Below are positions 675-61,408 of a stretch of DNA of 64,000 nt, one piece after another; the stretch's first letter is position 1, and each line of letters begins with the position of its first letter. The notes beneath the pieces are model-generated. The model did no database searches, was not told the DNA's origin, and worked only from the letters and a program-made list of their open reading frames with translations. This DNA comes from Comamonas sp. lk. GTDB taxonomy: Bacteria; Pseudomonadota; Gammaproteobacteria; Burkholderiales; Burkholderiaceae_C. The stretch is taken from NCBI RefSeq assembly GCF_900564145.1, contig NZ_UOOB01000001.1, forward strand, positions 2,482,754 to 2,546,753, in the 5' to 3' direction. Position numbers and translations under genes: made by a program.

Positions 675-687
675 TTAGGTGTGCGAG

Positions 688-978: not shown

Positions 979-981
979 CCC

Positions 982-3196: not shown

Positions 3197-3214
3197 CTGG
3201 AAAGCGCTACGTTG

Positions 3215-8910: not shown

Positions 8911-8922
8911 GAAATTCTCAGA

Positions 8923-8932: not shown

Positions 8933-9033
8933 AATGCTCAACACCTATCAATATTAATTCGCTTTTGGCTAAGAAGCGCCTGGACTATATTTTCCTGAAC
9001 GCGAGCGAAATCATGCGAGCCAAGGAAATAAAC

Positions 9034-12859: not shown

Positions 12860-12926
12860 GGCAGTTCTGCAAAACTGGCCTGCGTGCAGCTCGCCGCAGA
12901 CCTGACAAACATTCTGGAGGAGGGGT

Positions 12927-13868: not shown

Positions 13869-14008
13869 GGCGGCACAGACTAAAAGCTGGCGTCATTATG
13901 CTTCAAATATCTAAAGAATCTTCTTTTTATTTCAAATCTGCGTATTCATGTTGCGTTGCTCCGGCCCGCAGACCCACACATTCAGCGCAGGCGCGAACAG
14001 GAACCGGT

Positions 14009-17814: not shown

Positions 17815-17817
17815 CGA

Positions 17818-37613: not shown

Positions 37614-39155
37614 ATGAACACCCTTGCTCATGACCGGCCAGAGACAAGTTTCCGTGGCCGTGTCCGGCTGACCGCCTTGCTGGGATCTGCCATTTGGCTG
37701 ACCGGCTGTGCCAATTTAACCAGCCAGGCGCTGTCCACGGCAGAAATACAGTCGCAGGTTCAGGCAGACAAGCAAAGCCTGGGCAAGGATGCGGTTGCGC
37801 TGACCGGTCCTGTCAGCCTCGAGGAGGCCATTGCCCGTGCCATCAAGTACAACTCTGCCCAGCGCCTGCGCGGCATGGAGGAGGCTGTGGCCCAGGGCAC
37901 GGCCGATGTGGCCAAGTTCGATATGCTGCCCAAGCTGGTGGCTTCGGCCGGTTATCGTTATCGCGACAAGGATCTGATCAGCCGCAGCACGGATTCGGTG
38001 ACTGGGGCCCCTTCTCTGGCTCATCCCTATATATCCTCGGACAGGGAGTCCACGCTGACTTCGCTGAGTTTTTCCTGGAGTCTGCTGGACTTTGGCCAAA
38101 GCTACTACGCTGCGCGCCAGCATGCGGACCGGGCCCAGATTGCGTCTGAGCGCCGCCGCAAAGCGATCCACACGCTGATCCAGGATGTGCGCATTGCTTA
38201 TTGGCGCGTGGCTGCGGCCCAGGCACTCGAGTCCTCGCTCTCCATCGCCGCGCAGGAAGCCGACAAGGCGCTGGAAGACTCACGCAAGGTGGAAGCGGAA
38301 AAACTGCGCTCACCTTTGGACCCGCTGCGCTATCAGCGGCAGCTGCTGGAAAACATACGCCTGCTGGAAGCCGTGCAGCAGGAGTTGTCTTCCGCGCGCG
38401 TGGAGCTGTCCTCACTGATGGGCATGCCGCCCGGTGCGCTCCAGCAGCCGCTGCGCGTGGTGGAGCCGGCCATGTCCAACGCCAAGCGCTGGCTGGAGCA
38501 ACCCGTGGAAAAGCTGGAAGACAGGGCCCTGCTGCTCAACCCCGATTTGCGTGAGAGCCTTTACAACGCCCGTATTGCCAACGAGGAAACCAAGCGCGTG
38601 ATGCTGCGCATGTTCCCAGGCCTGTCCTTCAACTACGGCGCCAACAAAAGCAGCGACAGCTATCTGATCAATGACCGCTGGCAGGACGCGGGTCTGCAGA
38701 TTTCCTTCAATCTGCTGGGCTTGCTGGCCTTGCCGGCCCAGCGCCAACTGGCAGATGCCGGCGTCAAACTGGCCGATCAGCGTCGCCTGGCTACCCAGAT
38801 GGCGGTATTGACTCAGCTGCATGTGGCCCGTCTGCAGTTCGCCAATGCCGTGCACCAATATGAAAGAGCACAAACCATTGCCGATGTGGATCAGCGCATT
38901 TCCGAGCATGTGAGCAATCAGTTGCAGGCCGAGAAGATCAATGCGCTGGAGCTGGTTTCCCAGCGTACGGCCACCATCCTTTCGGTACTACGTCGCTATC
39001 AAGCCCTGTCCAATATGCAGGCTGCAAGCTCCCGCCTGCAAGCCACGCTGGGCATGGAGCCCGTGATTGAAGGCACGGACAGCATGCCCTTGCCCGAACT
39101 CACGCAGGCCGTGGCCCGATCGCTGCAAAGCTGGGAAGCAGGGCAGATTCAATGA
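37614..39155 (+). CDS. TolC-family outer-membrane factor of the giant-adhesin locus
   Basis: Predicted 513 residues from ATG 37614 (a longer in-frame start at 37515 lacks a signal). The N-terminus has a lipoprotein signal, RLTALLGSAIWLTGCANLTS. Two outer-membrane efflux repeats follow: PVSLEEAIARAIKYNSAQRL and FSWSLLDFGQSYYAARQHAD in the first half, and SFNLLGLLALPAQRQLADAG with coiled-coil ALELVSQRTATILSVLRRY in the second. It would form the trimeric outer-membrane channel for the exporter. It is coupled to the short HlyD-like gene by an ATGA overlap, and the giant protein gene follows 207 bases later. Confidence 0.88.
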   Translation: MNTLAHDRPETSFRGRVRLTALLGSAIWLTGCANLTSQALSTAEIQSQVQADKQSLGKDAVALTGPVSLEEAIARAIKYNSAQRLRGMEEAVAQGTADVAKFDMLPKLVASAGYRYRDKDLISRSTDSVTGAPSLAHPYISSDRESTLTSLSFSWSLLDFGQSYYAARQHADRAQIASERRRKAIHTLIQDVRIAYWRVAAAQALESSLSIAAQEADKALEDSRKVEAEKLRSPLDPLRYQRQLLENIRLLEAVQQELSSARVELSSLMGMPPGALQQPLRVVEPAMSNAKRWLEQPVEKLEDRALLLNPDLRESLYNARIANEETKRVMLRMFPGLSFNYGANKSSDSYLINDRWQDAGLQISFNLLGLLALPAQRQLADAGVKLADQRRLATQMAVLTQLHVARLQFANAVHQYERAQTIADVDQRISEHVSNQLQAEKINALELVSQRTATILSVLRRYQALSNMQAASSRLQATLGMEPVIEGTDSMPLPELTQAVARSLQSWEAGQIQ

Positions 39156-39952
39156 TGCGTTTCGTGCCTCGTAATGCTCTATGGATGCTTTTAGTCCTCT
39201 CCATGGGCGCCCATGCCCAGCCCAGTGCGCCCACGCCGATGCCCAAACCCAAGGCCGCTTTGCCCAGCGTTCTGGAACAGCGCGAGATACGCGCCCAGTT
39301 GGCGCCGCGTCGTTACACCACGCTGGCGGCCGAGATCGGTGCCAAGGTGCAGCGCCTGCCCGTAACGGAAGGCGCGGCCTTTCGCCAAGGCCAGCTACTG
39401 GTGCAGTTTGACTGCAGCCTGCCGCAAGCACAGCTCAACAAGGCCCAGGCAGGCGTTGACGCCACCGAAAAAACCTGGAAAGCCAACCAGCGTCTGGCGG
39501 AGTTGAACTCAGTCGGCAAGGTGGAACTGGATGTCTCTCAGGCCGAATGGAACAAGGCCAGGGCCGAAGTCTCAGCCAACCGCAGTCTGCTGAGCAAATG
39601 CCAGATCACCGCACCCTATGCAGGTCGGGTGGCCGAGCAAAAAATTCGCGAGCAGCAATATGCCCAGCCAGGCCAGCCCCTGCTGGACATCATTGACGAC
39701 AGCCTGCTGGAGCTGGAGTTTCTGGTGCCCTCGCGCTGGCTTACCTGGCTGCAGCAGAGCACGGAGTTTCAGGTGCGCATTGATGAAACCGGCAAGGCCT
39801 ACCCCGCCAAGGTGCAGCGCCTGGCGGCAAGAGTGGACCCGGTCAGTCAGTCCATCAAGGTCAATGCTGCCATTCATGGCAAGTTTCCCGAATTGATAGC
39901 CGGCATGAGCGGGCAGGTGCTGTTGGTACCACCTGCGGCTGCTAAGCCTTAA
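39152..39952 (+). CDS. Short HlyD-like periplasmic adaptor of the adhesin locus
   Basis: Predicted 266 residues with a signal peptide (FVPRNALWMLLVLSMGAHAQ). It lacks an N-terminal membrane anchor, so it is likely soluble-periplasmic. It has the split lipoyl motif (TTLAAEIGAKVQRLPVTEGA / ITAPYAGRVAEQKIREQQY), a shorter helical hairpin (residues about 85-130), then beta-barrel sequence with LLDIIDDSLLELEFLVPSRW. This would join an inner-membrane unit to the TolC-like channel. Its ATG overlaps the outer-membrane factor gene (ATGA), so the two are made together. Confidence 0.88.
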   Translation: MMRFVPRNALWMLLVLSMGAHAQPSAPTPMPKPKAALPSVLEQREIRAQLAPRRYTTLAAEIGAKVQRLPVTEGAAFRQGQLLVQFDCSLPQAQLNKAQAGVDATEKTWKANQRLAELNSVGKVELDVSQAEWNKARAEVSANRSLLSKCQITAPYAGRVAEQKIREQQYAQPGQPLLDIIDDSLLELEFLVPSRWLTWLQQSTEFQVRIDETGKAYPAKVQRLAARVDPVSQSIKVNAAIHGKFPELIAGMSGQVLLVPPAAAKP

Positions 39953-40004
39953 ATATTCAAATAGAGGAGCGGTTTGCGCCCGTATTCAAATGGTTTCGAA
40001 GAGC

Positions 40005-40199
40005 TTAAATCTCGAAAGCCTTTGTTTGTTTACGCATGCTGCTCATGTTTTCGATAGTCAGATCACGAGATACCGCCCGCACCCAGTGTGGGCTGAACTG
40101 ACGCTCGGAAGCCGCACAACTGGTCAGAGCTACGCCAGCAGCCACAGCAAGGACATTGGATGACCCGCAAACACCGCCAACTCTGGAACCGTCTGACAC
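40005..40199 (-). other. Possible small lipoprotein or its remnant, antisense to the start of the giant adhesin gene
   Basis: The minus-strand frame contains a stretch VLAVAAGVALTSCAASERQF resembling a lipoprotein signal with an LTSC lipobox, then SPHWVRAVSRDLTIENMSS and a stop at 40005. There is no normal ATG; the only start is a GTG at 40199 inside the plus-strand adhesin gene. It may be a truncated gene whose 5' end was replaced, or simply a shadow frame. I cannot decide from sequence alone. Confidence 0.25.
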
Positions 40200-42964
40200 A
40201 GGCGCTTACGGCGAAGATCGTGAAGGCCGACGCTCCACGCCATCCGCAGCCTGCCAGCGTCGTGCGCCCGCTGGCGCTGGAGCAGCGCTTTATGTTTGAC
40301 GGTGCAGCTGCTGCGGATGTGGCGCATGCCGTGACAGATGCTGCGATACCCGTGGCTGCAGAGCACACGGTGGACACGGCCAGTGCATTGCGGCATGCAC
40401 TGACGGCAGATGCCCAGAGAGCGACCGAGGGTGCGCGAGTGGCAACACAGCGCCAGGAGGTGGTGTTTGTGGATGGTCAGGTGGCCAACATGGCGGAGCT
40501 GCTGCAAGGCCTGTCGGGTAGTCCCGAGGTCGTCATCCTCGATTCGACCAAGGACGGCCTGCAGCAGATGGCCGACTACCTTAAGGGCCGCGAAGGTCTG
40601 GATGCCATTCACCTGCTGTCCCACGGTGCCGACGGCAACGTGCAGGTGGGCAATGTCTGGCTGGCCGGCTACAACCTCGCCGAACACCGCGCGGCACTGG
40701 AAAGCATCGGTGCGGCGCTCAAGGTCGACGGCGATTTGATGTTGTACGGTTGCAAAGTCGGCGAAACGGAGCAAGGTAAGGCGTTTATCGGTGAACTGGC
40801 AAGCATCACCGGTGCGGATGTCGCGGCGTCCGCGGATGACACCGGCGCTGCGATCCTGGGTGGCAACTGGACGCTGGAGCGCAGTGTCGGTTCGATTGAG
40901 ACCACCGTACTGGGCGCGCAACTGGAAGGTTACACCGCGGTGATGGCCGCCCAGTTTACCGGTGGCGCCAACGCCAGCGCGCCAGTACTGGGAGTAGGTG
41001 CCCTGTCGAGGATGGTTGTCGGTGATTTCAACGGTGACGGGCGAGCTGACATCCTGTTCCAGACCTCGAACACCGTCAACGCGCCGTGGAAGTTCGCCGC
41101 CGGCAAGTTCGGTGGTGGCTTCACCATTGTCGACCGCACCGACATCACCTCGCCGTTTCGCAACATTGTTTCGATGGTCGACATGGCCAACACCGGCTCC
41201 AATTACTATGCCGCCGACTTCGACAAAGACGGTGATATCGACCTGCTGGGTGTTACCGTTACCCTCGGTCCGGCGTTCCTGTATCGCAACAACAACGGTG
41301 TGTTCGAAAGTACAACCCCCACCGGTTTCGGTGGCGCGCAATTCGGTTCGCGCCTGGTCGTGGGTGACTTCAACGGCGACGGTGCCGCCGACATCCTCTA
41401 CCAGCCCGGTACTGTCGACAACCTGAACAGCTGGCGCTATGCGCTGAACAACGGCAACGGCACCTTCACCGATGTGGCGCAAAGTGCTTCGCCGTTCGCT
41501 TCGTTCGCGCTGCCGACCTACAGCAACTTCAACTACCGGGTGATCGACTTCGAGGGGGACGGCGACCTCGACATCATTTACATGGCTGCTGCCAACTCCG
41601 CATCGCTCTTTCTCAACAACGGCAACGGAACGTTCAGTCTCGGGGCGGGTGGCAACATCCCGATAGCGATTTTTTCCCAGCGCGCGATCTTTGGCGATTT
41701 CGACGGCGATGGCGATGCCGACATGTTCTGGCAGATGGCCGCCAACGGCACCGACTGGAACTATGCCGAGAACCTCGGTGATGGCATTTTCGCCCCTACT
41801 GTGACCCGGGCCAACTCGCCCTTCAAGGGCTTGCAGATGGTGGATTTCGGTACCACCAACTTCCGCATCGGTGATTTCGACGGTGATGGCGACACTGACC
41901 TGCTCGGCACCTTTGCTGGAGTCGGCGCCAGCGTTTATTACCAGGACGGCACCTCGCCCAAGCTGCTGAGCAGCACGCCGACCGACAACAGCGGCGCGGT
42001 CTCGCCGTCTGCCAACATCGTGCTGACCTTCGACCAGAGCGTGACCAAGGGCAGCGGCAATATCAAAATCGTGCGCACCAGCGACGGTGTGGTGGTACAG
42101 ACCATCGACGTGAATAGCGGTGCGGTAGCTGGCAGCGGTTCCACCTGGACCATCGATCCGCCGGCAGACCTTGTCGGTGGCGTGGCCTATGCAGTGCTCA
42201 TCGACAGCAAGACCTTTGTCAATGCCTCCGGCAGGGTCTACATGGGTATCCAGACCAAAACCGCGCTCAACTTCGTCACGTCCAGCATTGCGTCGCCCGT
42301 GATCACCGGCCTAGATGGCGACAGCATCACCTACACCGAGAAAGGTGCGCCGGTGCTGATCGATCCGAGCGGCAATGCTGAGGTAACCGACGCCGATTCG
42401 CTGAACTTCTCCGGCGGTACACTCACCGTTACCATCAATTCGGGCCGTGTAAACAGCGAGGATGTGCTCGGCGTCATGCACCAAGGCATTGGAGCTGGGC
42501 AGATCGGTGTGTCCGGTGGCCTCATTTCCTACAGCAACAACATTGTCGGCATCGCTAGTGGCGGTACCGGCAGCGATCCGTTGGTCATCAACTTCAACAG
42601 CCTCGCTACACCCACTGTGGTCAGCGCCTTGCTGCAGCGGTTGTCCTACAGCAACAGCAACACCACCGATATCGGCACTGGCGCGCGGAACATCCAGGTC
42701 ACCCTTGCCGATGGCACCGGCGGTGTCAGCAACGTCGCCAACATCAGCCTTGCTATTACTGCGGTGAACGACGCGCCGACGGCTACGATCACAGCGTCCA
42801 ACCCGACCTTCACCGAGGGCGGCAGTGAGGTCGCGGTGTTCAGCAGCACCGCTATCAGCCCCGTCGAGGCTTCCCAGAGAATCGATCAGATCGTCTTCAG
42901 GGTCTCAACGTCGGCAACAGCAGTTCCGAGAGGCTGCGCATCGACGGTACAGATGTGCTCCTGA
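40160..42964 (+). CDS. Giant surface adhesin, N-terminal part (DUF4347, FG-GAP repeats), ends at an apparent frameshift
   Basis: 934 residues up to a TGA in frame. No Sec signal. The N-terminal segment includes LALEQRFMFDGAAAADV (residues 38-54), resembling the LEPR-type signature at the start of giant secreted proteins. A DUF4347 domain follows (about residues 100-262: DAIHLLSHGADGNVQVGNVW, DLMLYGCKVGETEQGKAFIG). Residues about 285-600 hold at least six calcium-binding FG-GAP/VCBS motifs (FNGDGRADILF, FDKDGDIDLLG, FEGDGDLDIIY, FDGDGDADMFW). Then a Big_5-like domain (SSTPTDNSGAVSPSANIVLT). After SPVEASQRIDQIVF the frame loses homology; the normal continuation, LNVGNSSSERLRIDGTDVLL, lies in the neighbouring frame. 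Confidence 0.85.
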   Translation: MTRKHRQLWNRLTQALTAKIVKADAPRHPQPASVVRPLALEQRFMFDGAAAADVAHAVTDAAIPVAAEHTVDTASALRHALTADAQRATEGARVATQRQEVVFVDGQVANMAELLQGLSGSPEVVILDSTKDGLQQMADYLKGREGLDAIHLLSHGADGNVQVGNVWLAGYNLAEHRAALESIGAALKVDGDLMLYGCKVGETEQGKAFIGELASITGADVAASADDTGAAILGGNWTLERSVGSIETTVLGAQLEGYTAVMAAQFTGGANASAPVLGVGALSRMVVGDFNGDGRADILFQTSNTVNAPWKFAAGKFGGGFTIVDRTDITSPFRNIVSMVDMANTGSNYYAADFDKDGDIDLLGVTVTLGPAFLYRNNNGVFESTTPTGFGGAQFGSRLVVGDFNGDGAADILYQPGTVDNLNSWRYALNNGNGTFTDVAQSASPFASFALPTYSNFNYRVIDFEGDGDLDIIYMAAANSASLFLNNGNGTFSLGAGGNIPIAIFSQRAIFGDFDGDGDADMFWQMAANGTDWNYAENLGDGIFAPTVTRANSPFKGLQMVDFGTTNFRIGDFDGDGDTDLLGTFAGVGASVYYQDGTSPKLLSSTPTDNSGAVSPSANIVLTFDQSVTKGSGNIKIVRTSDGVVVQTIDVNSGAVAGSGSTWTIDPPADLVGGVAYAVLIDSKTFVNASGRVYMGIQTKTALNFVTSSIASPVITGLDGDSITYTEKGAPVLIDPSGNAEVTDADSLNFSGGTLTVTINSGRVNSEDVLGVMHQGIGAGQIGVSGGLISYSNNIVGIASGGTGSDPLVINFNSLATPTVVSALLQRLSYSNSNTTDIGTGARNIQVTLADGTGGVSNVANISLAITAVNDAPTATITASNPTFTEGGSEVAVFSSTAISPVEASQRIDQIVFRVSTSATAVPRGCASTVQMCS

Positions 42965-45900
42965 GCAACGGTAACTCGGTGAACACCGTGACCAACAGTC
43001 TGTCGATTGCGGTGACGTATGCCAGTGGCACCGCTGAGGTGACCATAAGCAGCGCAGCAGGGCTTACGGCAGCGGCGGCCAATGCCCTCATCAACGGCAT
43101 GACCTACGCCAACGACAGCAAAGCGCCCATTGGTACCAGCCGTTCGGTGGTGCTCTTCAGCGTGCGTGACAACGGTGGCGGCAGCAACACTACCAACGTT
43201 GGCACGACCAGTGCGGTTACCCTGGTTGCGGTGAACGATGCGCCAACGCTCTCGGGCGGACCGTTCTTCCTGACAGGCACGAATGAAGACACGACGTCCA
43301 CTGGGACCCAGATAAACACGGTACTGGCTGGCCTGAACTACAGCGATCCGGACTCCGGCGCGCTGCTCGGGGCAGCAGTTACCGCCACCACCGGTAACGG
43401 CACCTGGCAGTTTTCCCTCAACGGCGTCAGCGGTTGGACCGCCTTTGGCACGGTATCTAACAGCACTGCGTTGCTGCTGACGGGCAACACGTATGTCCGT
43501 TACGTCCCTGATGGCGCCAATGGCGAGGCTGCGACCTTGACCCTGCGCGCCTGGGACCGGAGCAGCGGCACGGCGTCCTCCAGCTCTGTGCCTCGCACAG
43601 CCGACACCACTTCTTCGGGGGGCAGCACCGCCTTCTCCAGCGGCACGGCGTCGGCTTCGCTCACTGTTACCAGTGTGAACGACGCACCGGTACTGACCAG
43701 CGCGTCGCCGACCTTGCTGGGTCTGACCGATGGCCAGATCAACAACCCCGGCGTGCTGGTCAGCTCGCTGTACTCCACTAACTACACCGATGTCGATACG
43801 GGTGCGATCAAGGGCATCGCCATCACCAGCCTGAGCGCAGGCAATGGCAGCTGGCAGTACAGCCTCGATGGCACGACCTGGAACAACGTCGGTGTCGTCA
43901 CCGTCAGCTCGGCGCTGCTGCTGCGCTCCAGTGACCATGTGCGTTTCGTGCCGGATGGCGTCAATGGCACCACCGCCGACTTCACGTTCCGCGCCTGGGA
44001 CCAGACCGGTATCACCAACGGCATGCAGGGCACCAAGGCCAATGCGTCCGCCGCTGGCGGCAACACGGCGTTCTCCACCGGACTCAACACTGCCAGCATC
44101 ACTGTGACTGCGGTCAACGATGCGCCGACGCTCACTGGCAGTGGCGGCGGCCTGACCTGGACCGAGGGCAACAACACCACGTCGCTCCCGGTGGTCATCG
44201 ATAGCGGCTTGACCATCACCGATGCCGACGGCCCGTACATCGCCTCGGCGACCGTGCGTATTTCGAACAACTACAGCAACGGCAATGATTACCTGGCGCT
44301 GGTTTCCGTTTCGGCGACCATGGGCAATATCATCGGCACGTGGGATGCCGGCACTGGCACCCTGACCCTAACCTCTGCTGGCAACCAGGCGAGCCTGGCG
44401 CAGTTCCAGGCGGCGTTGCAGGCGGTGACCTTCACCAACCTGTCAGACTCGCCCACAGTGGGGACCCGCACCGTAGAGTTCAAGGTCAATGACGGTAGCC
44501 TGGACTCCCTGAGCGTCTCCCGTAACATCCTCATCAGCGCCGTGGATGACGCACCGCTGATCAATGTGCCGACGAGCATCACGGTGCTAGAGGACATCGC
44601 CACGGTAATCAGCCAGATCAGCATCAGCGATCCTGACTCCAGCAACATCTTCATGACCCTGAGCGTCACCTCCGGCACCCTTGGAGCCCTAGGCGGCGCT
44701 GGCGTGACCGTGGGCGGAACCCCTACCGCAATGACCCTGAGCGGTACCATCGCCAATGTCAATGCCTTCATTTCCAACAACCGCGTAACCTACACCACGG
44801 CGGCCAACACCACGGCCGACGTGACCCTGACCGTCGGGGTCGACACTGGCAGCGTCGGTACCGACACCAAGACCATCACCCTCTCGGTCACCCCGGTGAA
44901 CGACGCGCCGGTGGTCACCGTACCGGTGTCACTCACTGTAACCGAGGATGTACCCGGCGGCGTGACCAACATCAGCTTCAGCGACGTGGACGCCGGCAAT
45001 GCTTCGGTCACTGCAACCTTCTCGGTGCCAAGCGGTGTCCTGCGCGCCGTCTCCGGCAGCGGGGTCACGGTGGATGGTTCGGGTACCGGTACGCTCACGC
45101 TGTCCGGCAGCCTGAGCGATATCAACACCTTCATCGCCGCCACCCGCGTGTCGTTCCAGACTGCGCTCAACAGCACCGACAGCGTGCTGCTGACGGTTTC
45201 GATCAACGACAACGGCAATACCGGCGGCGCTGCGCAGACCGATAGCAAGACCGTGATCATCAACGTCTCCGCGGTGAACGATGCGCCGGTCAACAGTGTG
45301 CCGGGTGCTCAGACCATCAAGCAGAACGTGGTCCTGGCGTTCAACACCCTTAAAGGCAACGCCATTTCTTTCAGCGATCCGGATGCCGGCAGCAGCAACG
45401 TGATCGTGATCCTGAACTCGGTGAACGGCACCATGTCGCTGACCGCTGCCGGCGGTGTGAGCTTCGTGACCGGCGATGGCGTCGATGACACCTCCATCCG
45501 CATGCAGGGGACCCTGGCTGATCTCAATACCACGCTGCAGAGTCTGACGTTCAAGCCGACCACCGGCTTCCTCGGCAATGCTCAAATGAGCATCCAGACC
45601 AACGACATGGGTTTCTCCGGCAGCGGCGGTGCCAAGACCGATTTCGACCTGATCCTCATCACCGTGGTTCCGGCCAACCCGGCGGTCACCAGTGTTTCTG
45701 CCCAGGGCCTGGATCGCACCGTCAAGATAGGTGACGAAGTGCTGGTCAACGTGGTCTTCGACCAGGTGGTCAACGCCGATACCAGCGGCGGTATTCCGAG
45801 CCTGTTGCTGGAGACCGGACTGCTGGATCGCAATGCGGTTTATGTGAGCGGGACGGGCAGCAACACCCTGGTGTTCAAGTACACCGTACAGGCCGGTGAT

Positions 45901-48900: not shown

Positions 48901-51462
48901 ACCGGCTATGCGGATGCTGCCGGCAACAGCGGCACGGGCACGAGTGACTCCAATAGCTACGCCATCGACACCGTGCGTCCCACGGCGACCATGGTGGTCA
49001 GCGATGCGGCACTCAAAGTGGGCGAAACCTCGCTGGTGACCATCACCTTTAACGAGGCGGTCACCGGTTTGACCACGGCGGACTTTACGGTTGCCAATGG
49101 TGCGCTGTCCGGCTTGAGCAGCAGCGATGGCGGCAAGATCTGGACGGCGACCTTGACGCCGACGGTCAATCTCGAGAACACCGCCAATCTGATCACGCTG
49201 GACAACACCGGCTATGCGGATGCTGCCGGCAACAGCGGCACGGGCACGAGTGACTCCAATAGCTACGCCATCGACACCGTGCGTCCCACGGCGACCATTG
49301 TGGTCAGCGATGCGGCGCTCAAAGTGGGCGAAACCTCGCTGGTGACCATCACCTTTAACGAGGCGGTGAGCGGATTGACCACGGCGGACTTCACGGTTGC
49401 CAACGGTGCGCTGTCCGGCTTGAGCAGCAGCGATGGCGGCAAGATCTGGACGGCGACCTTGACGCCGACGGTCAATCTCGAGAACACCGCCAATCTGATC
49501 ACGCTGGATAACACCGGCTATATGGATGCCGCCGGCAACACCGGCACGGGCACGAGTGACTCCAATAGCTACGCCATCGACACCTTGCGTCCCACGGCGA
49601 CCATTGTGGTCAGCGATGCGGCACTCAAAGTGGGCGAAACCTCGCTGGTGACCATTACCTTCAGCGAAGCGGTAACTGGTTTCACCAATGCCGACCTAAC
49701 CATCGCCAACGGTACGTTGAGCGCAGTCAGCAGCAGCGATGGCGGCAGCACCTGGACGGCGACCTTGACGCCCACGGTGGGCATTACCGACACCAGCAAT
49801 CTGATCACGCTGGACAACACCGGCTATGCGGATGCTACCGGCAACACCGGCACGGGAACGACGGACTCGGGCAACTACGCCATCGACACCTTGCGTCCCA
49901 CGGCGACCATTGTGGTCAGCGATGCGGCACTCAAAGTGGGCGAAACCTCGCTGGTGACCATCACCTTTAACGAGGTGGTCACCGGTTTGACCACGGCGGA
50001 CTTTACGGTTGCCAACGGGGTGTTGAGCGGTTTGAGCAGCAGCGATGGCGGCAAGATCTGGACGGCGACCTTGACGCCGACGGTCAATCTCGAGAACACC
50101 GCCAATCTGATCACGCTGGACAACACCGGCTATATGGATGCCGCCGGCAACACCGGCACGGGCACGAGTGACTCCAATAGCTATGCCATCGACACCTTGC
50201 GTCCCACGGCCGGCATTGTGGTGGCCGATAGCGCTTTGTCAGTGGGCGAGACCTCGCTGGTGACGATCACCTTTAACGAAGCGGTCACCGGTTTGACCAC
50301 GGCGGACTTCACGGTTGCCAATGGGGTGTTGAGCGGCTTGAGCTCTTCGGATGGCGGCAAGACCTGGACGGCGACCTTGACGCCTGTGGCTGATGTTGAG
50401 CACACGGACAATCTAATTACCTTGAACAATGCAGGTGTGAAGGACGCAGCAGGCAACACCGGCACAGGCAGCACTGACTCCAACGTTTATGCCGTTGAAA
50501 CGCTTGCCCCTGCCGTACCAGAGCTTTCACTGGATCAATTCACCTTGGTGAATGGACAGCAGATCTCACCCACAGGTGTTGTCTTTGTTTCTGGGGTGGA
50601 AGCAGGTGCTCGTTGGCAATATTCACTGGACAACGGTGTGTCCTGGAATGTTGGCCAAGGCGGCGCTCTGCAACTATCGGGTCTCGGTGCACACCGGCTT
50701 TTGGTTCAGCAGATAGACACAGCAGGCAATACGTCCCGCGAGGCTTTGCTCAACTTCGTCGTTGAGCCATTGCTACCTCCTGCGGTACTGCCGCAAACTG
50801 CATTGGCAGCCAGTGATTCGGGGATGCCGATGACTCAGGGGATTGCTGCCAACTTATTTCAGCCATCAGAGGTAGCTGAACCGAGCATTGACTTTCTCCA
50901 TTCCGCGCCGACATTACTTCACCCAACATCTTCAGCGCAAAATTCTGGAATATCAGGGGCAGAGAGCGGGGCGGGATATGGATTGACCGCTTTGCAAGCT
51001 GTCACAGGCTTTGGTGACTGGATGGGTTCGCCTCTTCCTGCCTCGGGAGAGGCAATCCGATCCGGGCTTGATGGAACTCCTGAGCTTCTTTCTGCTCTTG
51101 CTGGAACTGGCTCCAGCCTGAATCTGAAGGCCTTGCTGATAGCTCCAGAAAGCTCATTCGATACATCTTCACTGCAATTTAGTTTATCCGGGCAACAAGC
51201 CTTGCCTGGATGGATTCAATTGGACCGTAATACAGGTCAGCTGTTGATCAATGCGCCTAAAGACATGAACGCCACACTTGTTTTGCATATCAAGGTGAGC
51301 GATGGACAGGGGCGTGAGTCCGTTCAAACTTTCAAGCTGGTGATCGGTACTGCTCGTACTTCATCAGTCGTGCTCCCCGGACGTGCAGGGCTGAGCGAGA
51401 AGATGGCAAATGCAGCGAAGCATCAGGCGGGGCACAGAATGCCTATGTATTCCCGTGGTTGA
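42955..51462 (+). CDS. Giant surface adhesin, remaining part (cadherin/Ig-like repeats, C-terminal Ig domain), continued from previous CDS after frameshift
   Basis: 2,835 residues in the other frame; the GTG at 42955 is only the first in-frame start and coding sequence evidently begins before it near 42,900. It consists of repeated cadherin-like/VCBS-type domains (VNDAPTLSGG, VNDAPVLTSA, VNDAPTLTGS at domain boundaries), SwmB-like segments (VLVNVVFDQVVNADTSGGIP, LDFTVNFSENVVVSTVGGTP), ten 102-residue Ig-like tandem repeats (residues about 1498-2517), and a C-terminal putative-Ig domain (GWIQLDRNTGQLLINAPKDM). There is no RTX nonapeptide repeat, no LPXTG and no typical acidic RTX secretion tail; it ends HQAGHRMPMYSRG. 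Its last 950 bases are more A/T-rich than the repeat region. Function is probably adhesion or biofilm; whether it is made intact depends on the frameshift. Confidence 0.85.
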   Translation: MLLSNGNSVNTVTNSLSIAVTYASGTAEVTISSAAGLTAAAANALINGMTYANDSKAPIGTSRSVVLFSVRDNGGGSNTTNVGTTSAVTLVAVNDAPTLSGGPFFLTGTNEDTTSTGTQINTVLAGLNYSDPDSGALLGAAVTATTGNGTWQFSLNGVSGWTAFGTVSNSTALLLTGNTYVRYVPDGANGEAATLTLRAWDRSSGTASSSSVPRTADTTSSGGSTAFSSGTASASLTVTSVNDAPVLTSASPTLLGLTDGQINNPGVLVSSLYSTNYTDVDTGAIKGIAITSLSAGNGSWQYSLDGTTWNNVGVVTVSSALLLRSSDHVRFVPDGVNGTTADFTFRAWDQTGITNGMQGTKANASAAGGNTAFSTGLNTASITVTAVNDAPTLTGSGGGLTWTEGNNTTSLPVVIDSGLTITDADGPYIASATVRISNNYSNGNDYLALVSVSATMGNIIGTWDAGTGTLTLTSAGNQASLAQFQAALQAVTFTNLSDSPTVGTRTVEFKVNDGSLDSLSVSRNILISAVDDAPLINVPTSITVLEDIATVISQISISDPDSSNIFMTLSVTSGTLGALGGAGVTVGGTPTAMTLSGTIANVNAFISNNRVTYTTAANTTADVTLTVGVDTGSVGTDTKTITLSVTPVNDAPVVTVPVSLTVTEDVPGGVTNISFSDVDAGNASVTATFSVPSGVLRAVSGSGVTVDGSGTGTLTLSGSLSDINTFIAATRVSFQTALNSTDSVLLTVSINDNGNTGGAAQTDSKTVIINVSAVNDAPVNSVPGAQTIKQNVVLAFNTLKGNAISFSDPDAGSSNVIVILNSVNGTMSLTAAGGVSFVTGDGVDDTSIRMQGTLADLNTTLQSLTFKPTTGFLGNAQMSIQTNDMGFSGSGGAKTDFDLILITVVPANPAVTSVSAQGLDRTVKIGDEVLVNVVFDQVVNADTSGGIPSLLLETGLLDRNAVYVSGTGSNTLVFKYTVQAGDSSVDLDFQSTAALQMNGAVISNNTSDLAILTLPTIGGANSLGGRSNIVVDGVVPVVASVGMPSDGSYIVGQNLDFTVNFSENVVVSTVGGTPRIAVTLDTGGTVYADYVSGSGSSVLVFRLVVASGQLDSTGVTLGNSVDPNGGSIRDAAGNNSVTALNNIASPANVKVDGVVPTVVSVAVPAGGSYKAGTELLFTMAASEAVQIGGLAPRLVLNVGGATRYATYISGSGSAQLVFKYTVQSGDTDTDGIAVNTLDLRGESLTDLAGNNLNLTLNGLGSTAGVLVDTTAPSASGIVHVDATPTNNGSVSFTVTFSEDVSGVDVNDFALTLTGSAGGTISTVTRVNGTTWTVLVNGLSGLGTLGLNLNGSGTGIVDAADNAVVGGLSGAVYAVDRIAPSITSVDVPANGSYVAGQNLDFTVHLDDVVQLDTTAGSPRLEVTLDNGVTAYATYLSGAGTNALVFRLTVTGGQLDSNGISVGNSMQLNGATMRDAVGNDAITLLKNVASTSGVRVDAVRPTATIVVSDAALKVGETSLVTITFNETVTGLTTADFTVANGTLSGLSSSDGGSTWTATLTPAAGITDTSNLITLDNTGYMDAAGNSGTGTSDSNSYAIDTLRPTAGIVVADSALSVGETSLVTITFNEAVTGLTTADFTVGNGTLSGLSSSDGGKTWTATLTPTVNLENTVNLITLDNTGYADAAGNSGTGTSDSNSYAIDTVRPTATMVVSDAALKVGETSLVTITFNEAVSGLTTADFTVANGALSGLSSSDGGKTWTATLTPTVNLENTANLITLDNTGYADAAGNSGTGTSDSNSYAIDTVRPTATIVVSDAALKVGETSLVTITFNEAVTGLTTADFTVANGALSGLSSSDGGKTWTATLTPTVNLENTANLITLDNTGYADAAGNSGTGTSDSNSYAIDTVRPTATMVVSDAALKVGETSLVTITFNEAVTGLTTADFTVANGALSGLSSSDGGKTWTATLTPTVNLENTVNLITLDNTGYADAAGNSGTGTSDSNSYAIDTVRPTATMVVSDAALKVGETSLVTITFNEAVTGLTTADFTVANGALSGLSSSDGGKIWTATLTPTVNLENTANLITLDNTGYADAAGNSGTGTSDSNSYAIDTVRPTATIVVSDAALKVGETSLVTITFNEAVSGLTTADFTVANGALSGLSSSDGGKIWTATLTPTVNLENTANLITLDNTGYMDAAGNTGTGTSDSNSYAIDTLRPTATIVVSDAALKVGETSLVTITFSEAVTGFTNADLTIANGTLSAVSSSDGGSTWTATLTPTVGITDTSNLITLDNTGYADATGNTGTGTTDSGNYAIDTLRPTATIVVSDAALKVGETSLVTITFNEVVTGLTTADFTVANGVLSGLSSSDGGKIWTATLTPTVNLENTANLITLDNTGYMDAAGNTGTGTSDSNSYAIDTLRPTAGIVVADSALSVGETSLVTITFNEAVTGLTTADFTVANGVLSGLSSSDGGKTWTATLTPVADVEHTDNLITLNNAGVKDAAGNTGTGSTDSNVYAVETLAPAVPELSLDQFTLVNGQQISPTGVVFVSGVEAGARWQYSLDNGVSWNVGQGGALQLSGLGAHRLLVQQIDTAGNTSREALLNFVVEPLLPPAVLPQTALAASDSGMPMTQGIAANLFQPSEVAEPSIDFLHSAPTLLHPTSSAQNSGISGAESGAGYGLTALQAVTGFGDWMGSPLPASGEAIRSGLDGTPELLSALAGTGSSLNLKALLIAPESSFDTSSLQFSLSGQQALPGWIQLDRNTGQLLINAPKDMNATLVLHIKVSDGQGRESVQTFKLVIGTARTSSVVLPGRAGLSEKMANAAKHQAGHRMPMYSRG
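47446..50505 (+). repeat. Ten tandem 306-bp repeats encoding 102-aa Ig-like domains
   Basis: Units begin at 47446, 47752, 48058, 48364, 48670, 48976, 49282, 49588, 49894 and 50200, each exactly 306 bp and starting at an R-P-T-A codon block. Units 3-7 are nearly identical at DNA level (units 4-6 differ by only a few bases); unit 1 (ITDTSNLITL), unit 8 and the AGIVVADSALSVGETS variants (units 2 and 10) are more divergent. The core is GETSLVTITFNEAVTGLTTA and GLSSSDGGKTWTATLTP. The near-identity indicates recent unequal recombination or gene conversion. Confidence 0.97.
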
Positions 51463-51498
51463 TGAAATCATGCGCAAAGCCACCCGAGGAGTAGTGCG

Positions 51499-52860
51499 GT
51501 GAACGCAGCTGTGTTACCTCAGAACGTGAACCCGGCGATGCTGCTGCTGGAGTTGGGTCATCGCGCTCGGGCTGCGCGCAGCAGTGCCGAACTTGGCTTC
51601 ATGCTGGTCAACGATAGCCGTTTGCTGGCCCCTTATCGCCAAGCCTGTTTATGGATAAGCCACAGCGGAGTGACTGCGGTGTCTGGTGTGGTGGAGCATG
51701 ATAAAAATACGCCTTATGCCCAGTGGTTGAATGAGCTGTGTCGTTTTTTACATGCTCAGCAATCAACGCAAGTGCGCAGCGTTGATATTTCTCAGCTTCC
51801 CCCTGAATTGGCCAAATCCTGGAGCGAATGGCTCGGAGCGTATGCGGTATGGGTTCCTTTGCTTGAGGACGTTGCGGCGGCTCTTCCCCGTGGGGGGCTG
51901 CTGCTCTCAGGTTCCCATCCCTTTGAAGCACAGCGCCTTCCACTTCTCGCAGAATGGAGCCATATCTGGTTTCACGCTTATGAGGCATTGAAGGCCGGCC
52001 AGTCTAGGCTTTGGCGAAAGTCTGTGGCTTCCAGCGCTGTCGCTCAAAAATGGTGGTTGAAGAAGTCCACTTGGGCGTTGGGTGGGTTGCTTGTACTAAG
52101 TGTTCTACCTGTGCATATGAGCGTTCTGGCGCCAGGGGAGCTGGTTGCCGCTCAGCCCGTGGTTCTCAGAGCGCCCCTGGACGGGGTCATAGACCAGATT
52201 CATGTTCAACCCAATCAGATCGTGCGCAAAGGTGATCCTCTGTTTGGCTTGGATGAGGCTCAGATCAGCAGTCGCCTGGATGTCGCACAGCAAGCATTGC
52301 TGACAGCCGAAGCCGAATACCGACAGTCTGCTCAGTTGGCCCTGGGTGATGCACGCTCCAAAGCGCAACTGGCAGCACTGGTTGGCCGCATTGGCGAGAA
52401 GCGCAGCGAGGTGCAATACCTGAACGATCAACGTGATCGCAGCCGGGTGTTGGCGTCTGAAGATGGCATGGTTTTATTTGATGCGCCCATAGAGTGGCTG
52501 GGTAAGCCTGTGCAGACTGGCGAGCGGGTAATGCGTATCGCCCGTCCCAATGAGGTGGAAATCGAGGCCTGGGTTCCTGTCAGTGACGCCATTCCTCTGA
52601 AGCAAGGCTCTCCTGTGAAACTGTATTTGGCGGCTAACCCCATGGCAGGGCTCGAAGGCAAGCTTAGATACATGGCGTATGACGCCAGCGCCAGGCCTGA
52701 TGGCAGCTATGCCTATCGGATGCGCGCTGCCATGCCTTTTGAGGAGGGCGCACGCATTGGCCTTAAAGGGACTGCCAAACTGCAAGGTGAATGGGTGCCG
52801 TTGGCCTATTGGGTTTTGCGCAAGCCCTGGGCCGTGCTTCGCCAATTCATTGCTTGGTAG
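51499..52860 (+). CDS. HlyD-family adaptor with N-terminal cytoplasmic GAF-like region (adhesin locus)
   Basis: Predicted 453 residues; GTG 51499 after CGAGGA. Residues 1-185 are soluble, with ELGHRARAARSSAELGFMLV and LLAPYRQACLWIS, like the GAF-like front part of such HlyD proteins that neighbour M50 proteases. One membrane helix follows (about residues 192-210). The remainder is a membrane-fusion protein: ELVAAQPVVLRAPLDGVIDQ (lipoyl), helical hairpin (DVAQQALLTAEAEYRQSAQL), DGMVLFDAPIEWLGKPVQTG and a barrel domain. It starts 36 bases after the giant gene and is seven bases from the M50 gene, so all belong to one operon. It likely bridges the M50 protein to the TolC-like channel. Confidence 0.87.
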   Translation: MNAAVLPQNVNPAMLLLELGHRARAARSSAELGFMLVNDSRLLAPYRQACLWISHSGVTAVSGVVEHDKNTPYAQWLNELCRFLHAQQSTQVRSVDISQLPPELAKSWSEWLGAYAVWVPLLEDVAAALPRGGLLLSGSHPFEAQRLPLLAEWSHIWFHAYEALKAGQSRLWRKSVASSAVAQKWWLKKSTWALGGLLVLSVLPVHMSVLAPGELVAAQPVVLRAPLDGVIDQIHVQPNQIVRKGDPLFGLDEAQISSRLDVAQQALLTAEAEYRQSAQLALGDARSKAQLAALVGRIGEKRSEVQYLNDQRDRSRVLASEDGMVLFDAPIEWLGKPVQTGERVMRIARPNEVEIEAWVPVSDAIPLKQGSPVKLYLAANPMAGLEGKLRYMAYDASARPDGSYAYRMRAAMPFEEGARIGLKGTAKLQGEWVPLAYWVLRKPWAVLRQFIAW

Positions 52861-52866
52861 GCGAGC

Positions 52867-54975
52867 ATGAATAGTGCTTGGCCCAGTCTGCGTGAGGAGC
52901 TTGATTTGCTCCCCGGACCCGTGCTGCCTGATGGCCAGCCGAGCTGGACTTTGCATGACCCGGTGCGCAATCTATTCTTTCAGCTTGATTGGGCCAGCTT
53001 CGAAGTGTTCAAACGCTGGCATTTAGGTACTGCGCAATCCATTGCGCAGGACATCATCAATGACACGACATTGACACTCCGTGAGGAAGATGTGGCTGCG
53101 CTTTTTCAATTTGCACAGCGCAATGACCTACTAGAGCCCGAGCCGAATTGCGCCGCAAAGCTGGCTCAGCAATGGCAGTCCAGGCGATCAAGCTGGATGC
53201 AATGGTTGCTTCACAACTACCTGTTTTTCCGGGTGCCGCTGATCAAGCCTGATCGGTGGCTGGGGCGTTGGGCTCCGCGACTGGAGTTCTTCTTCGGTCG
53301 TACGTTTGGCTGGGCCAGTATGCTGGCTCTGGTCGCGGGAATTTGGGGTGTTTCACGCTCCTGGGGAGAGTTCACGGCCACCTTGGTTGACTCATTGACT
53401 TGGCAGGGGCTACTGGCCCATGGACTGACGCTGGGGTTTGTCAAAGTGCTGCATGAACTGGGTCATGGCTTTACGGCCAAACGATTTGGCTGCCGTGTTC
53501 CCACCATGGGCATAGCGTTTCTGGTGTTGTGGCCGGTGGCTTACACCGACACCAATGAGGTCTGGAAACTGACTCGACGTGACCAGCGTCTCAAGGTGGC
53601 TGGTGCAGGTATCGTGACGGAGCTCGTCATCGCTGCATGGGCCTTGTTGGCCTGGGTCTGGTTACCCGATGGTGTGCCAAAGTCCATGGCTTTTCTACTG
53701 GCCACCACCACCTGGGTCAGCACCTTGGCGATCAATGCCAGCCCTTTCATGCGCTTTGACGGCTATTTTTTGCTATCGGATTTTTTGCAAATGCCCAACT
53801 TGCATTCACGTGCTTTTGCGCTGGCGCGCTGGGATTTGAGAGAAAAGCTTTTCAATCTTGGTGAGCCGGCGCCCGAGTCCTTCACGGATTCAAAACGCCG
53901 TTGGCTAATTGTGTTTGCCTGGGTGACCTGGATTTATCGACTAGTCTTATTTCTGGGTATTGCTGCCTTGGTCTATCACTTTTTTATCAAGGCACTGGGC
54001 ATCTTGCTATTTTTGGTGGAAATTGTGTGGTTCATTGCCAAGCCCCTTTGGTCCGAAATTTCAGCCTGGTACAAGCGCTGGCCGCAGATTATTAATAGTC
54101 GAAGAGCCCGTTGGAGTGCCGTAGGGGTGATCGCTCTCGTCGTTCTCTGCTGGCTGCCATTGCCTACTCCGGTTCGTACGCAAGGTATGTTGCAATCCGC
54201 CGAAGTATGGCCTTTGCATGCACTCGAGGCATCGCAGTTGCAACAGCAACTGCTGCCAGAAGCACAGATGACTGAAGTGAATGCGCCGATCTTTATGCTG
54301 GATTCGCCGTCTCTAAAAGCTGCTCAAGCCCAAAGCGATGCTCAGCAGACTCAGTATTTGCAGCAAATGGCTGCTGCGGGTTTTGACTCCGAACTACGTC
54401 GGGATTGGCAGGTTCTGCTGGAGCGCCAAACACAGGCGACGGCTCAGCAGTTGGCGATAGAAACCGAAGCCAGTCGCTATCGCCTGAGCTCGGCAGGTAC
54501 GGGCGTGCTGAGAGATGTTGATCCAGACCTTCGCCCTGGTGATTGGCTGGCACGCCATGAATTGTTGGGTAAGGTCGTAGGCGCTCAGTTGGAGGTTCTT
54601 GCCTATGTGCAGGAAGAAGATGTTCAGCGCCTCCGCATAGGTGATAGCGGGATTTTTATCTCTGATGGTGGAGCGGGGCCCGTGCTGGATTTGAAGGTTC
54701 GCAGCATTGACCAGGACGCAAGCCGGGTGCTTTCAGAAGCAAACTTGTCTACGCTTGCCGGTGGCAATATTCCGGTGAGAAGCATGCAGGGTGCGCTCTA
54801 CCCAGAGCGTCCCGTCTACAGAGTTGTGTTGGATGTGACAACGCCGTCTGCTGGAGAGGCTGCTTCCCAACACCGCTGGCGAGGCAAAGTCAGCATCCAT
54901 GGCCGCTGGGAGGCCATCGCCTCTCAGTTTGTCAATACAGCTGCAAGCGTGTTTTGGAGGGAGGCTGGTTTTTAG
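52867..54975 (+). CDS. M50-type site-2 metalloprotease fused to adaptor-like region; probable core of adhesin exporter
   Basis: Predicted 702 residues with several helices (about 143-165, 176-195, 250-285, 345-400 and 417-432). The zinc motif H-E-L-G-H is at residues 196-200 (VKVLHELGHGFTAKRFGCRV), and the third-ligand region is NASPFMRFDGYFLL with Asp near residue 298, as in M50 and YydH-like 'peptide zinc metalloproteases'. The soluble N-terminal 140 residues (PSWTLHDPVRNLFFQLDWAS) form a PqqD-like/winged front domain. After a helix near residue 420, residues 430-702 resemble a HlyD-type membrane-fusion domain (AGTGVLRDVDPDLRPGDWLA, EVLAYVQEEDVQRLRIGDSG). It could process the exported protein or form the channel itself; both are inference. 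Confidence 0.87.
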   Translation: MNSAWPSLREELDLLPGPVLPDGQPSWTLHDPVRNLFFQLDWASFEVFKRWHLGTAQSIAQDIINDTTLTLREEDVAALFQFAQRNDLLEPEPNCAAKLAQQWQSRRSSWMQWLLHNYLFFRVPLIKPDRWLGRWAPRLEFFFGRTFGWASMLALVAGIWGVSRSWGEFTATLVDSLTWQGLLAHGLTLGFVKVLHELGHGFTAKRFGCRVPTMGIAFLVLWPVAYTDTNEVWKLTRRDQRLKVAGAGIVTELVIAAWALLAWVWLPDGVPKSMAFLLATTTWVSTLAINASPFMRFDGYFLLSDFLQMPNLHSRAFALARWDLREKLFNLGEPAPESFTDSKRRWLIVFAWVTWIYRLVLFLGIAALVYHFFIKALGILLFLVEIVWFIAKPLWSEISAWYKRWPQIINSRRARWSAVGVIALVVLCWLPLPTPVRTQGMLQSAEVWPLHALEASQLQQQLLPEAQMTEVNAPIFMLDSPSLKAAQAQSDAQQTQYLQQMAAAGFDSELRRDWQVLLERQTQATAQQLAIETEASRYRLSSAGTGVLRDVDPDLRPGDWLARHELLGKVVGAQLEVLAYVQEEDVQRLRIGDSGIFISDGGAGPVLDLKVRSIDQDASRVLSEANLSTLAGGNIPVRSMQGALYPERPVYRVVLDVTTPSAGEAASQHRWRGKVSIHGRWEAIASQFVNTAASVFWREAGF

Positions 54976-55132: not shown

Positions 55133-55208
55133 TGGTGCCGGAGAGACGAATCGAACGCCCGACCTTCTCATTACGAATGAGCTGCTCTACCGACTGAGCT
55201 ACACCGGC
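55133..55208 (-). tRNA. tRNA-Thr (anticodon CGT)
   Basis: On the minus strand the 76-base sequence starts GCCGGTGTAGCTCAGTCGG and ends with an encoded CCA. The cloverleaf is complete: acceptor GCCGGTG pairs with the CTCCGGC end with one mismatch, the D-arm has AGCTCAGTCGGTAGAGCA, the anticodon arm CTCATTCGTAATGAG gives loop TTCGTAA with anticodon CGT, and the T-arm has GGTTCGAATCC-type GGGCGTTCGATTCGTCT. It reads ACG threonine codons. Confidence 0.97.
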
Positions 55209-60335: not shown

Positions 60336-61289
60336 TCAGTGTTCCTGCGACATATTGTGGGTTTTCCTCAGCTGCCCGATTGCGCCTGGCGGGTTGTCCA
60401 CTGCATCACGCCCGCCGTCGTCGGCCGGGTCTCGCTCCAGCTGCGCCAGCAGCCATTGCCTGAAAGTGGCCAGTGCAGCACTTGGCTGGCGGGATTTGAG
60501 GTGGGTCAGCCAGTAGGCGCCTGTATCCACTTCCTGCATGAAAGGGCGCACCAGCCGGCCCTGCAGCAGCATGTGTTCAAACATGCGCGCGGGCAGCAAG
60601 GCCACGCCCGCTCCTTGGGTGGCGGCTTCGGCCAGCGTCAGCGATGAATCGAACATGGCGCCGCGCGCCAGCGGGGCGGGCAGCTGGGCCGCGGCAAACC
60701 AGCCGTCCCATTCATGGCTGCGGTAGGAGCGCAACAGCGTCTGGCCTGCCAGATCTGCGGGCTGGCGCAGGTGCTGGGCCAGTGCCGGGGCACACATGGG
60801 CGAGAGCGGGGCGCGCAGCAGCATGTGCGCATGCGTGCCGTGCCAGGAGCCATCGCCAAAGCGCACGGCAGCGTCTAATCCTTCGCCAGCCAGATCCACC
60901 CGGTTGTTATGGGTAAGCAGGCGCAGATCGATATAGGGATGTAGCTGCTGAAACTGGCTCAGGCGCGGAATCAGCCAGCCAATCGCAAATGTGCCGACCA
61001 CGCCCACCGTCAGTATCTCGCGCGGGCGCGGTTCGGCCACTTGCTGCAGCGATTGCTCGATGCGCTCAAAGCTTTGCGCCACCACGGGCCACAAGGCCTG
61101 GCCTTCATCGGTGAGCGCCAGACCGCGGGGCAGGCGTCTGAACAGCGGCTTGCCCAGGCGCTCTTCCAGATTGCGTATGTGCTGGCTGACTGCCGCCTGG
61201 GTGACATGGAGCTCCTGGGCGGCGCGGGTCAGGTTCAGATGCCGGGCGGCGGCATCGAACATGCGCAAGGCGTTGAGAGGCAGTTGCAT
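60336..61289 (-). CDS. LysR-type regulator (GcvA/AmpR-like), divergent from beta-lactamase gene
   Basis: Predicted 317 residues. The winged helix region PLNALRMFDAAARHLNLTRA and VTQAAVSQHIRNLEERLGKP is the GcvA/AmpR-type signature; the effector domain includes TVGVVGTFAIGWLIPRLSQF and RFGDGSWHGTHAHMLLRAPL. The start lies 119 bases from the class A beta-lactamase start in divergent orientation, the layout of ampR-type control, where cell-wall fragments alter the regulator's activity. The C-terminus has a non-conserved extension (DPADDGGRDAVDNPPG). Confidence 0.9.
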   Translation of the reverse strand: MQLPLNALRMFDAAARHLNLTRAAQELHVTQAAVSQHIRNLEERLGKPLFRRLPRGLALTDEGQALWPVVAQSFERIEQSLQQVAEPRPREILTVGVVGTFAIGWLIPRLSQFQQLHPYIDLRLLTHNNRVDLAGEGLDAAVRFGDGSWHGTHAHMLLRAPLSPMCAPALAQHLRQPADLAGQTLLRSYRSHEWDGWFAAAQLPAPLARGAMFDSSLTLAEAATQGAGVALLPARMFEHMLLQGRLVRPFMQEVDTGAYWLTHLKSRQPSAALATFRQWLLAQLERDPADDGGRDAVDNPPGAIGQLRKTHNMSQEH

Positions 61290-61408
61290 AGCGCCATTCT
61301 GATTTAGTTAAAAGTTTTTCTTATGACAGATGTCAAATATTACCGATGGTCTTTGTTTTTACCGCGCTATATGCTGCAACTTGTAGGACGTAATCAGTAG
61401 AGGAACTT

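Follow-up and report, generated by a model that had tools for sequence, protein, structure and literature searches.

A candidate ABC-less, type-I-like export cassette for a tagged giant surface protein in Comamonas sp. lk

How does a giant, adhesin-like protein reach the bacterial surface when the genes packed around it encode an outer-membrane channel and several adaptors, and no ATP-binding cassette (ABC) exporter? The giant adhesins LapA, SiiE and BapA are cargo of type I secretion systems (T1SS). The question is raised by a 64,000-nucleotide stretch of Comamonas sp. lk (contig NZ_UOOB01000001.1, positions 2,482,754 to 2,546,753), hereafter the window, where five tightly packed plus-strand genes at 37.6-55.0 kb encode, in this order, a TolC-like outer-membrane factor (OMF), a short HlyD-type adaptor, a giant protein with immunoglobulin (Ig)-like and FG-GAP domains, a HlyD-type adaptor with a GAF-like front (GAF-HlyD), and an M50 protease fused to a HlyD-type tail. 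We think it probable that these genes form an ABC-less, type-I-like export cassette for one tagged giant surface protein, and that the cassette is a SecA-less sister form of a locus reported in 2015. Its features, in window coordinates, are these:

37614..39155, plus strand: TolC-like OMF (PF02321, 4.5e-30), in a reading frame open from 37515
39152..39952, plus strand: short HlyD/RND-type periplasmic adaptor (PF13437, 3.9e-19; TIGR01730 (RND_mfp), 119 bits, cut-off 94.9)
40160..42964, plus strand: first open frame of the giant, 934 aa, with N-terminal tag, DUF4347, FG-GAP and Ig-like domains
40277..40306, plus strand: LEQRFMFDGA tag, residues 40-49 of the giant, a LEPR-like putative export signal
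40460..40939, plus strand: DUF4347, residues 101-260 of the giant (PF14252, 3.6e-51, 173.6 bits, above the gathering score of 24.6)
42890..42950, plus strand: frame change at about 42,905 that splits the giant gene (two open reading frames (ORFs) in different frames; relatives uninterrupted)
42955..51462, plus strand: second open frame of the giant (open from 42829), with cadherin-like PF17803 in 3 stretches and Big_12 Ig-like PF19078 in 11 stretches
51499..52860, plus strand: HlyD adaptor with GAF-like cytoplasmic front and one transmembrane segment (193-211) (PF13437, 1.6e-21)
52867..54975, plus strand: M50 protein with PqqD-like front, HExxH intramembrane protease and HlyD/MacA-like tail
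53452..53466, plus strand: HELGH zinc motif, residues 196-200 of the M50 protein (HExxH invariant)
54157..54975, plus strand: membrane-fusion-protein tail, residues 431-702 of the M50 protein (PDB MacA 4dk1, 2.1e-8)

The gene array and its order, first proposed from the letters of the window and its ORFs (the original prediction), are borne out by the reading frames and family matches. The short HlyD gene starts within an overlap with the OMF stop, and the OMF itself has a lipoprotein-like start (LTGC, by eye). An adaptor of HlyD type and an OMF of TolC type, as used in type I secretion, are both present (PF13437, PF16576, PF02321); the locus proteins stay below cut-off on TIGR01843 and TIGR01844, the OMF scoring 38.6 bits on the latter, far under its cut-off of 225. 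The predicted HELGH motif lies at residues 196-200 of the M50 protein, and H196, E197, H200, N290, P293 and D298 are invariant in 50/50 M50 proteins, with HExxH present in 183/183 loci. The proposed membrane-fusion half also stood: positions 431-628 of the M50 profile match MacA (PDB 4dk1, 2.1e-8) and other adaptors of solved structure, and HlyD_3 matches nine of ten mixed M50 homologues.

This arrangement is not peculiar to Comamonas sp. lk. There are at least 582 relatives of the M50 protein in GTDB species genomes, the best 80 of which are the 80 loci referred to below as the window clade. The GAF-HlyD gene stands directly upstream of the M50 gene in 79 of these 80 (in L020 the contig begins just before M50), and the two genes are a fixed pair. 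The order OMF, HlyD, giant, GAF-HlyD, M50 recurs in many loci where the contig permits; elsewhere the giant lies nearby, convergent and downstream in three Herbaspirillum loci (L025, L028, L056), ahead of the OMF in L139-L141 and behind M50 in L219. With a sister-type M50 as query, 85/299 genomes across the phylum match at E<=1e-15, both clades included. The search for co-occurrence of the M50-adaptor fusion with giants and OMF/HlyD genes, suggested in the original prediction, finds a recurrent five-gene cassette that is common to many environmental bacteria. One locus (L169, in genome G135) has a second M50/GAF-HlyD pair tail to tail with the first.

Library scans gave no ABC match among the six locus proteins, as had been predicted, and a dedicated ABC partner was sought in the rest of the host genome. 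There, six proteins match PF00664 (five above cut-off), and none of the six exceeds the cut-off of any T1SS model. The highest T1SS score among them is 446 bits, on the HlyB model (cut-off 726), and the protein concerned reaches 1,395 on a cyanophycin-associated model; one of the other five passes as MsbA, two are MsbA-like below cut-off, one passes as CydD and one falls just under the CydC line. No match of LssB type (TIGR03375) was found in this genome at E<=1e-130. By these models, no ABC exporter of the HlyB/LssB/PrtD type used in type I secretion was found in the host. A BapP-type T1SS, described in the available part of its report as a LolD-like ATPase with ABC transporters (PMC12153261), was considered and rejected for the locus, which has no such genes; no search was made for MacB-, RND- or MFS-type pumps in the rest of the genome.

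If no ABC exporter serves the locus, what energizes it? Part of an answer comes from relatives outside the window clade. Within the same host family, M50 is followed by a SecA-like protein in 9/9 sister loci, and among the best 30 sister loci over the phylum the SecA-like gene lies within 1.5 kb downstream in 28 (with an intervening ORF in L180/L229, and in two frames in L202); one of the exceptions, L194, ends with its contig. The sister protein keeps the SecA nucleotide-binding motifs (by eye) and ends early, mostly at about 660-730 aa. No SecA-like gene was found at any of the 80 window-clade loci. A tree of 107 M50 proteins, built by a quick method and with a midpoint root for drawing only, separates 43 rows (41 SecA-linked plus the two exceptions) from 64 SecA-less ones on a branch with 100% SH-aLRT support, and the SecA label changes 3 times on this tree versus a shuffled mean of 33. 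The M50 family, compared in this way, consists of two clades, a SecA-linked sister clade and the SecA-less window clade. At the level of whole genomes, an extra SecA_DEAD gene occurs in 21/22 sister-clade genomes (drawn largely from loci where the SecA-like gene had already been seen), in 2/41 window-clade genomes and in 0/10 M50-less controls, given a 60-bit line between SecA-like proteins and helicase-like crumbs that was set after viewing the data (66 bits, then 31). In each of the two window-clade exceptions the extra gene seems to belong to a further cassette of sister type: the G052 copy shares its contig with a distant M50 match, and the G116 copy lies at a contig end and is followed by HlyD. 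The Comamonas genome has one SecA and no secondary one. In the same tree, the M50 protein of a record titled as an Akkermansia muciniphila metagenome-assembled genome (MAG; L071) groups with Limnohabitans, probably on a mis-binned contig.

Comparison between the clades also bears on the fronts of the two inner-membrane proteins. The M50 front aligns with the fronts of sister-clade proteins, and Pfam PqqD matches 4/10 scanned M50s, from both clades (six sister-type and four window-type proteins were scanned), with a best value of 3.5e-6. The evidence on the GAF-like front described for the HlyD adaptor is mixed. Pfam GAF gave no match at E<=1 in any of 17 relatives; their profile aligns from end to end, covering the front (E 6e-25 for the whole), with adaptors of the sister clade in which Pfam GAF is recognised (best 7.2e-12), and a GAF-like nature is therefore plausible.

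The most specific tie between cassette and cargo is a short motif near the start of the giant. Matches to short HlyD, GAF-HlyD and M50 were present together in 61 loci, 28 of which have a giant between the short HlyD and GAF-HlyD genes; LE[QPA]R[FILV][MV]FDGA occurs near the start in 27/28 of these in-cassette giants, and in the 28th (L168) the gene is broken and the tag falls in the fragment split off upstream. The other 33 loci were dropped since the giant lay elsewhere, its start fell outside the stretch, or no large ORF was present; their largest ORF bears the tag in 18 and lacks it in 12 (including L142, where the tag was found further inside a longer ORF), and three have no large ORF. 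The tag lies mostly 18-50 residues behind an upstream Met, two giants having no in-frame Met. Among 1971 ORFs (>=280 aa), 46 match the tag pattern within their first 260 residues, and the one match that is not a cassette giant is L052, where a LEPR-type fragment lies downstream of M50. A strict DNA version of the pattern is found in 7/120 same-family genomes, all seven of them among the ten with a close M50 (at least 37% identity), and its reversed control gave 0 matches in the 120; the Comamonas genome has a single tag match and none to the reversed pattern. By sequence comparison, then, the tag is linked to the cassette. In position and pattern it is the same as the LEPR-XLL domain (NCBIfam NF012209), whose cut-off of 17 bits is passed by the relatives L140, L146, L147, L154 and L244; the window protein itself gave no match to NF012209 at E<=0.001 and does not reach that cut-off. 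Sister-clade giants of the same host family bear the LEPR-XLL form (e.g., LEPRILYSAD).

Two absences noted earlier for the giant agree with these results as well. No RTX family matches either piece at E<=0.001, and no clear Sec signal was found in the first 150 residues by hydrophobicity (KD19 1.19, KD15 1.22), a weak measure, given that the signal-like start of the short HlyD reaches a KD15 of only 1.38, which 9/45 tagged giants exceed.

Either the N-terminal motif or DUF4347 had been proposed as the export signal, and the motif is now the favoured candidate because DUF4347 is optional among tagged giants. DUF4347 is missing from 12 tagged cassette giants by its His-Gly/Tyr-Gly-Cys pattern, and Pfam found none in the first 600 residues of 10/10 tagged giants, all picked from these pattern-negative 12 (L072 and L078 were left out). 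Conversely, the tag occurs in 0/7 DUF4347 proteins from six M50-less genomes, of which L245 and L248 have Sec-like hydrophobic fronts (by eye), and it is also absent from L252 (G051), a further DUF4347 protein in a cassette genome. DUF4347 was accordingly rejected as the export signal. Since our own DUF4347 profile spanned the tag region, low-scoring matches to it were discarded and not counted as DUF4347. The domain may have another role: His155 (SHG) and Cys198 (YGC) are invariant in 17/17 aligned DUF4347 sequences and resemble a caspase-type dyad, a hint that it may be a self-processing protease of clan CD (caspase-like), and Pfam Peptidase_C80 appears in relatives only at 0.0084 and 0.067. 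In the accessible parts of the respective reports, DUF4347 is present in PA0256, a putative type VI secretion toxin (PMC8262886), and names a chain of PDB 9QPE (PMC13323088).

In the favoured reading, the LEQRFMFDGA tag would be read on the cytoplasmic side, and the likeliest reader would be the PqqD-like front of M50. In enzymes that make ribosomally synthesized and post-translationally modified peptides, domains of the PqqD-like kind bind the leader peptide. The M50/GAF-HlyD pair would serve as the inner-membrane dock, the intramembrane zinc protease may cut or release the giant near its tag, and the HlyD-type tails, the short HlyD and the TolC-like OMF would form the conduit to the surface. 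A SecA ATPase would supply the energy: in the sister clade this would be the dedicated SecA-like protein, and in the window clade presumably the one housekeeping SecA, working with SecYEG. Such a system would share with the secretion of LapA, SiiE and BapA a TolC-like OMF, HlyD-like adaptors and giant Ig-repeat cargo, and would differ from it in that no ABC exporter and no RTX family were found; moreover, its conserved candidate signal is N-terminal instead of C-terminal. More tentatively, and with somewhat less than even confidence, we suggest a separate Gram-negative secretion route, in which a PqqD-M50-HlyD protein reads an N-terminal LE[QP]R-x-[ML]-[FY]-[DS]-[GA]-A tag and passes proteins of about 2,000-5,000 residues through HlyD/TolC, free of ABC exporters, with its own SecA-like motor in one clade and none of its own in that of the window.

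The original prediction looked for kin among YydH-type peptide clusters, and the closest published locus that we found is instead the SecA/M50/HlyD locus of Kamneva, Poudel and Ward (2015; PMC4452313), who described SecA_DEAD, M50, HlyD and GAF genes together and noted the absent ABC gene. In the portion of the report available, SecA_DEAD was proposed as the ATPase and M50 as the membrane pore, and the role of the locus was called unknown, so the central idea of the original prediction was already in print for the sister form. The likeness extends to an M50-HlyD protein (the window M50 is an M50 protein with a HlyD domain in the terms of that report), a HlyD adaptor with a plausibly GAF-like front, a further HlyD and no ABC gene. 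The locus of 2015 sometimes has an OEP protein, and the window clade usually has an OMF in the cassette; the window clade differs in having no SecA-like gene, and the same portion of the report names neither a substrate nor an N-terminal tag (Kamneva et al., 2015). In the open PubMed Central literature, nothing among the matches listed ties the locus to LEPR/DUF4347 giants or their tag, or describes a SecA-less clade or a PqqD-like M50 front, and the supplementary M50 trees of Kamneva et al. may include SecA-less members. Our comparison supplies candidates for both the cargo and the export signal of a secretion-like locus to which that report assigned no role, and it reveals a large sister group that lacks the SecA-like motor. 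If the favoured reading is true, it would provide a surface route for LEPR-type and many DUF4347 giants.

Could the giant nevertheless be an ordinary type I substrate, its OMF and adaptors pairing with an ABC exporter encoded elsewhere while M50 trims or retains the adhesin? We regard this as improbable. In its favour, the OMF and HlyD proteins belong to families that type I systems use, T1SS-type ABC genes lie downstream in 2/80 loci, and 53/73 genomes own an LssB-like ABC at E<=1e-130, a line fixed within that analysis (13 candidates were scored per genome, and PrtD types could escape). That none of the six PF00664 proteins of the host fits a T1SS model, and that the giant matches no RTX family, argue against it, as does the absence of an LssB-type match, at the same line, from 11/41 window-clade genomes, 5/22 sister-clade genomes and 4/10 M50-less controls; since such matches are missing across cassette genomes and controls alike, the presence of a T1SS appears independent of the cassette. 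Less probable still, to the point that we give it little weight, is that, as in YydH/daptide clusters, a small peptide is the product or cargo of the cassette and the giant an unrelated neighbour (no search was made for short peptide genes). The window M50 shares with daptide and YydH/LiaK metalloproteases the HExxH intramembrane protease core, scoring 156.5 bits on the daptide HExxH model NF041824 and 31.2 on the YydH/LiaK model NF058609; both scores are under cut-off (300 and 225), the match spans residues 57-387 and ends before the HlyD-type tail, and the tagged giant recurs as partner even in the loci where it is convergent downstream.

Somewhat stronger, though still unlikely in our view, is the suggestion that M50 and GAF-HlyD alone form an inner-membrane channel, driven by proton-motive force or by extracellular folding, with no part for SecA. 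No motor gene stands beside M50 in the SecA-less clade, 39/41 window-clade genomes have no second SecA_DEAD gene of at least 60 bits, and a pore function of M50 was suggested for the 2015 locus in the text available to us (Kamneva et al., 2015; PMC4452313). The sister clade, however, keeps a dedicated SecA-like ATPase with nucleotide-binding motifs, which argues that the related form uses ATP. M50 proteases are also not known to act as channels. The same observation limits the earlier proposal that M50 plus adaptor replaces the ABC transporter: the missing ABC partner and the fixed M50/GAF-HlyD pair speak for it, but it can be at best half the story, because a sister clade that encodes a SecA-like ATPase implies that an energy source is still needed.

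Several observations weigh against the ABC-less, SecA-driven reading that we favour, and the strongest doubts concern the lack of a motor in the window clade, T1SS-type ABC genes near some loci, the weakness of the tag across the sister clade at large, and a LEPR-XLL giant from Vibrio with RTX domains. Because the window clade shows no motor, the case for SecA as the energy source is drawn from the sister clade, and one sister locus (L189/L234, in G343) is itself without SecA. ABC-type matches occur within the stretch in 8/80 window-clade loci, and the two that were classified are both of T1SS type: in L006 a HlyB-like ABC gene begins 33 bases after M50 (597 bits, cut-off 726), and in L013 a PrtD-type ABC above its cut-off lies about 2 kb downstream of M50, followed by ORFs resembling HlyD and TolC (by eye). 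The L006 gene, at 12133-14340 of that locus, comes from a Rhodocyclaceae MAG. The remaining six of the eight have unclassified ABC-type ORFs, as do L207, L209, L216, L222 and the sister locus L229; in L219 such an ORF scores 18 bits. Outside the host family, sister-clade cassettes do not generally come with the tag: of eight large ORFs beside sister-type cassettes there, not every one of which need be cargo, one passes the LEPR-XLL model, two fall just under its cut-off and five have no match, two of the latter being two-partner-secretion (TPS)-type proteins. These are found in L231, where a ShlB-like protein (7801-9885) and a TPS-domain giant (1-7791), the latter with no LEPR match, accompany the sister-type cassette, and in L233, where a TPS-type giant front without LEPR match lies at 14548-19899. 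The tag is also compatible with an ABC route, since RTX and serralysin domains are reported at the end of the Vibrio LEPR-XLL giant (PMC10868602). Additionally, the window's own M50 has no PqqD match at E<=0.001, so that its PqqD-like front rests on alignment; the fronts of the giants are, by hydrophobicity, not clearly distinct from a weak signal peptide; and the giant of the window carries a frameshift and may be inactive.

That frameshift qualifies the description of the giant as a single protein of ~3,760 aa. Its domains were confirmed, and the length proved to be the sum of two ORFs. Both align side by side on the uninterrupted giant of L163, meeting at residues 931-934, and seven close relatives (L160, L162-L167) have a single open frame of 2,176-5,005 aa. 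The split may be a sequencing error or a recent loss. In an eighth close relative (L168, in G138) the giant is split and the M50 gene is interrupted by about 1.3 kb, as if the two were decaying together.

The host genome (4.9 Mb, two contigs) is Comamonas-like, and its closest named relative among the matches listed is C. testosteroni JL40, with an M50 protein 81% identical. The neighbours that could be named in the window are ordinary chromosomal genes, encoding superoxide dismutase, an extradiol-dioxygenase-like protein, tRNA-Thr, fructose-bisphosphatase, PepN, a LysR regulator and a class A beta-lactamase. The tRNA-Thr gene (CGT; 55133-55208, minus strand) stands directly behind the M50 gene. 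As the cassette is patchy within the genus, with an M50 match in 19/41 genomes, this tRNA gene may mark an insertion site of the cassette. Further along, at 60336-62311 of the window, the LysR regulator (PenR-like) and the class A beta-lactamase are divergently arranged, the latter scoring above the general class A cut-off.

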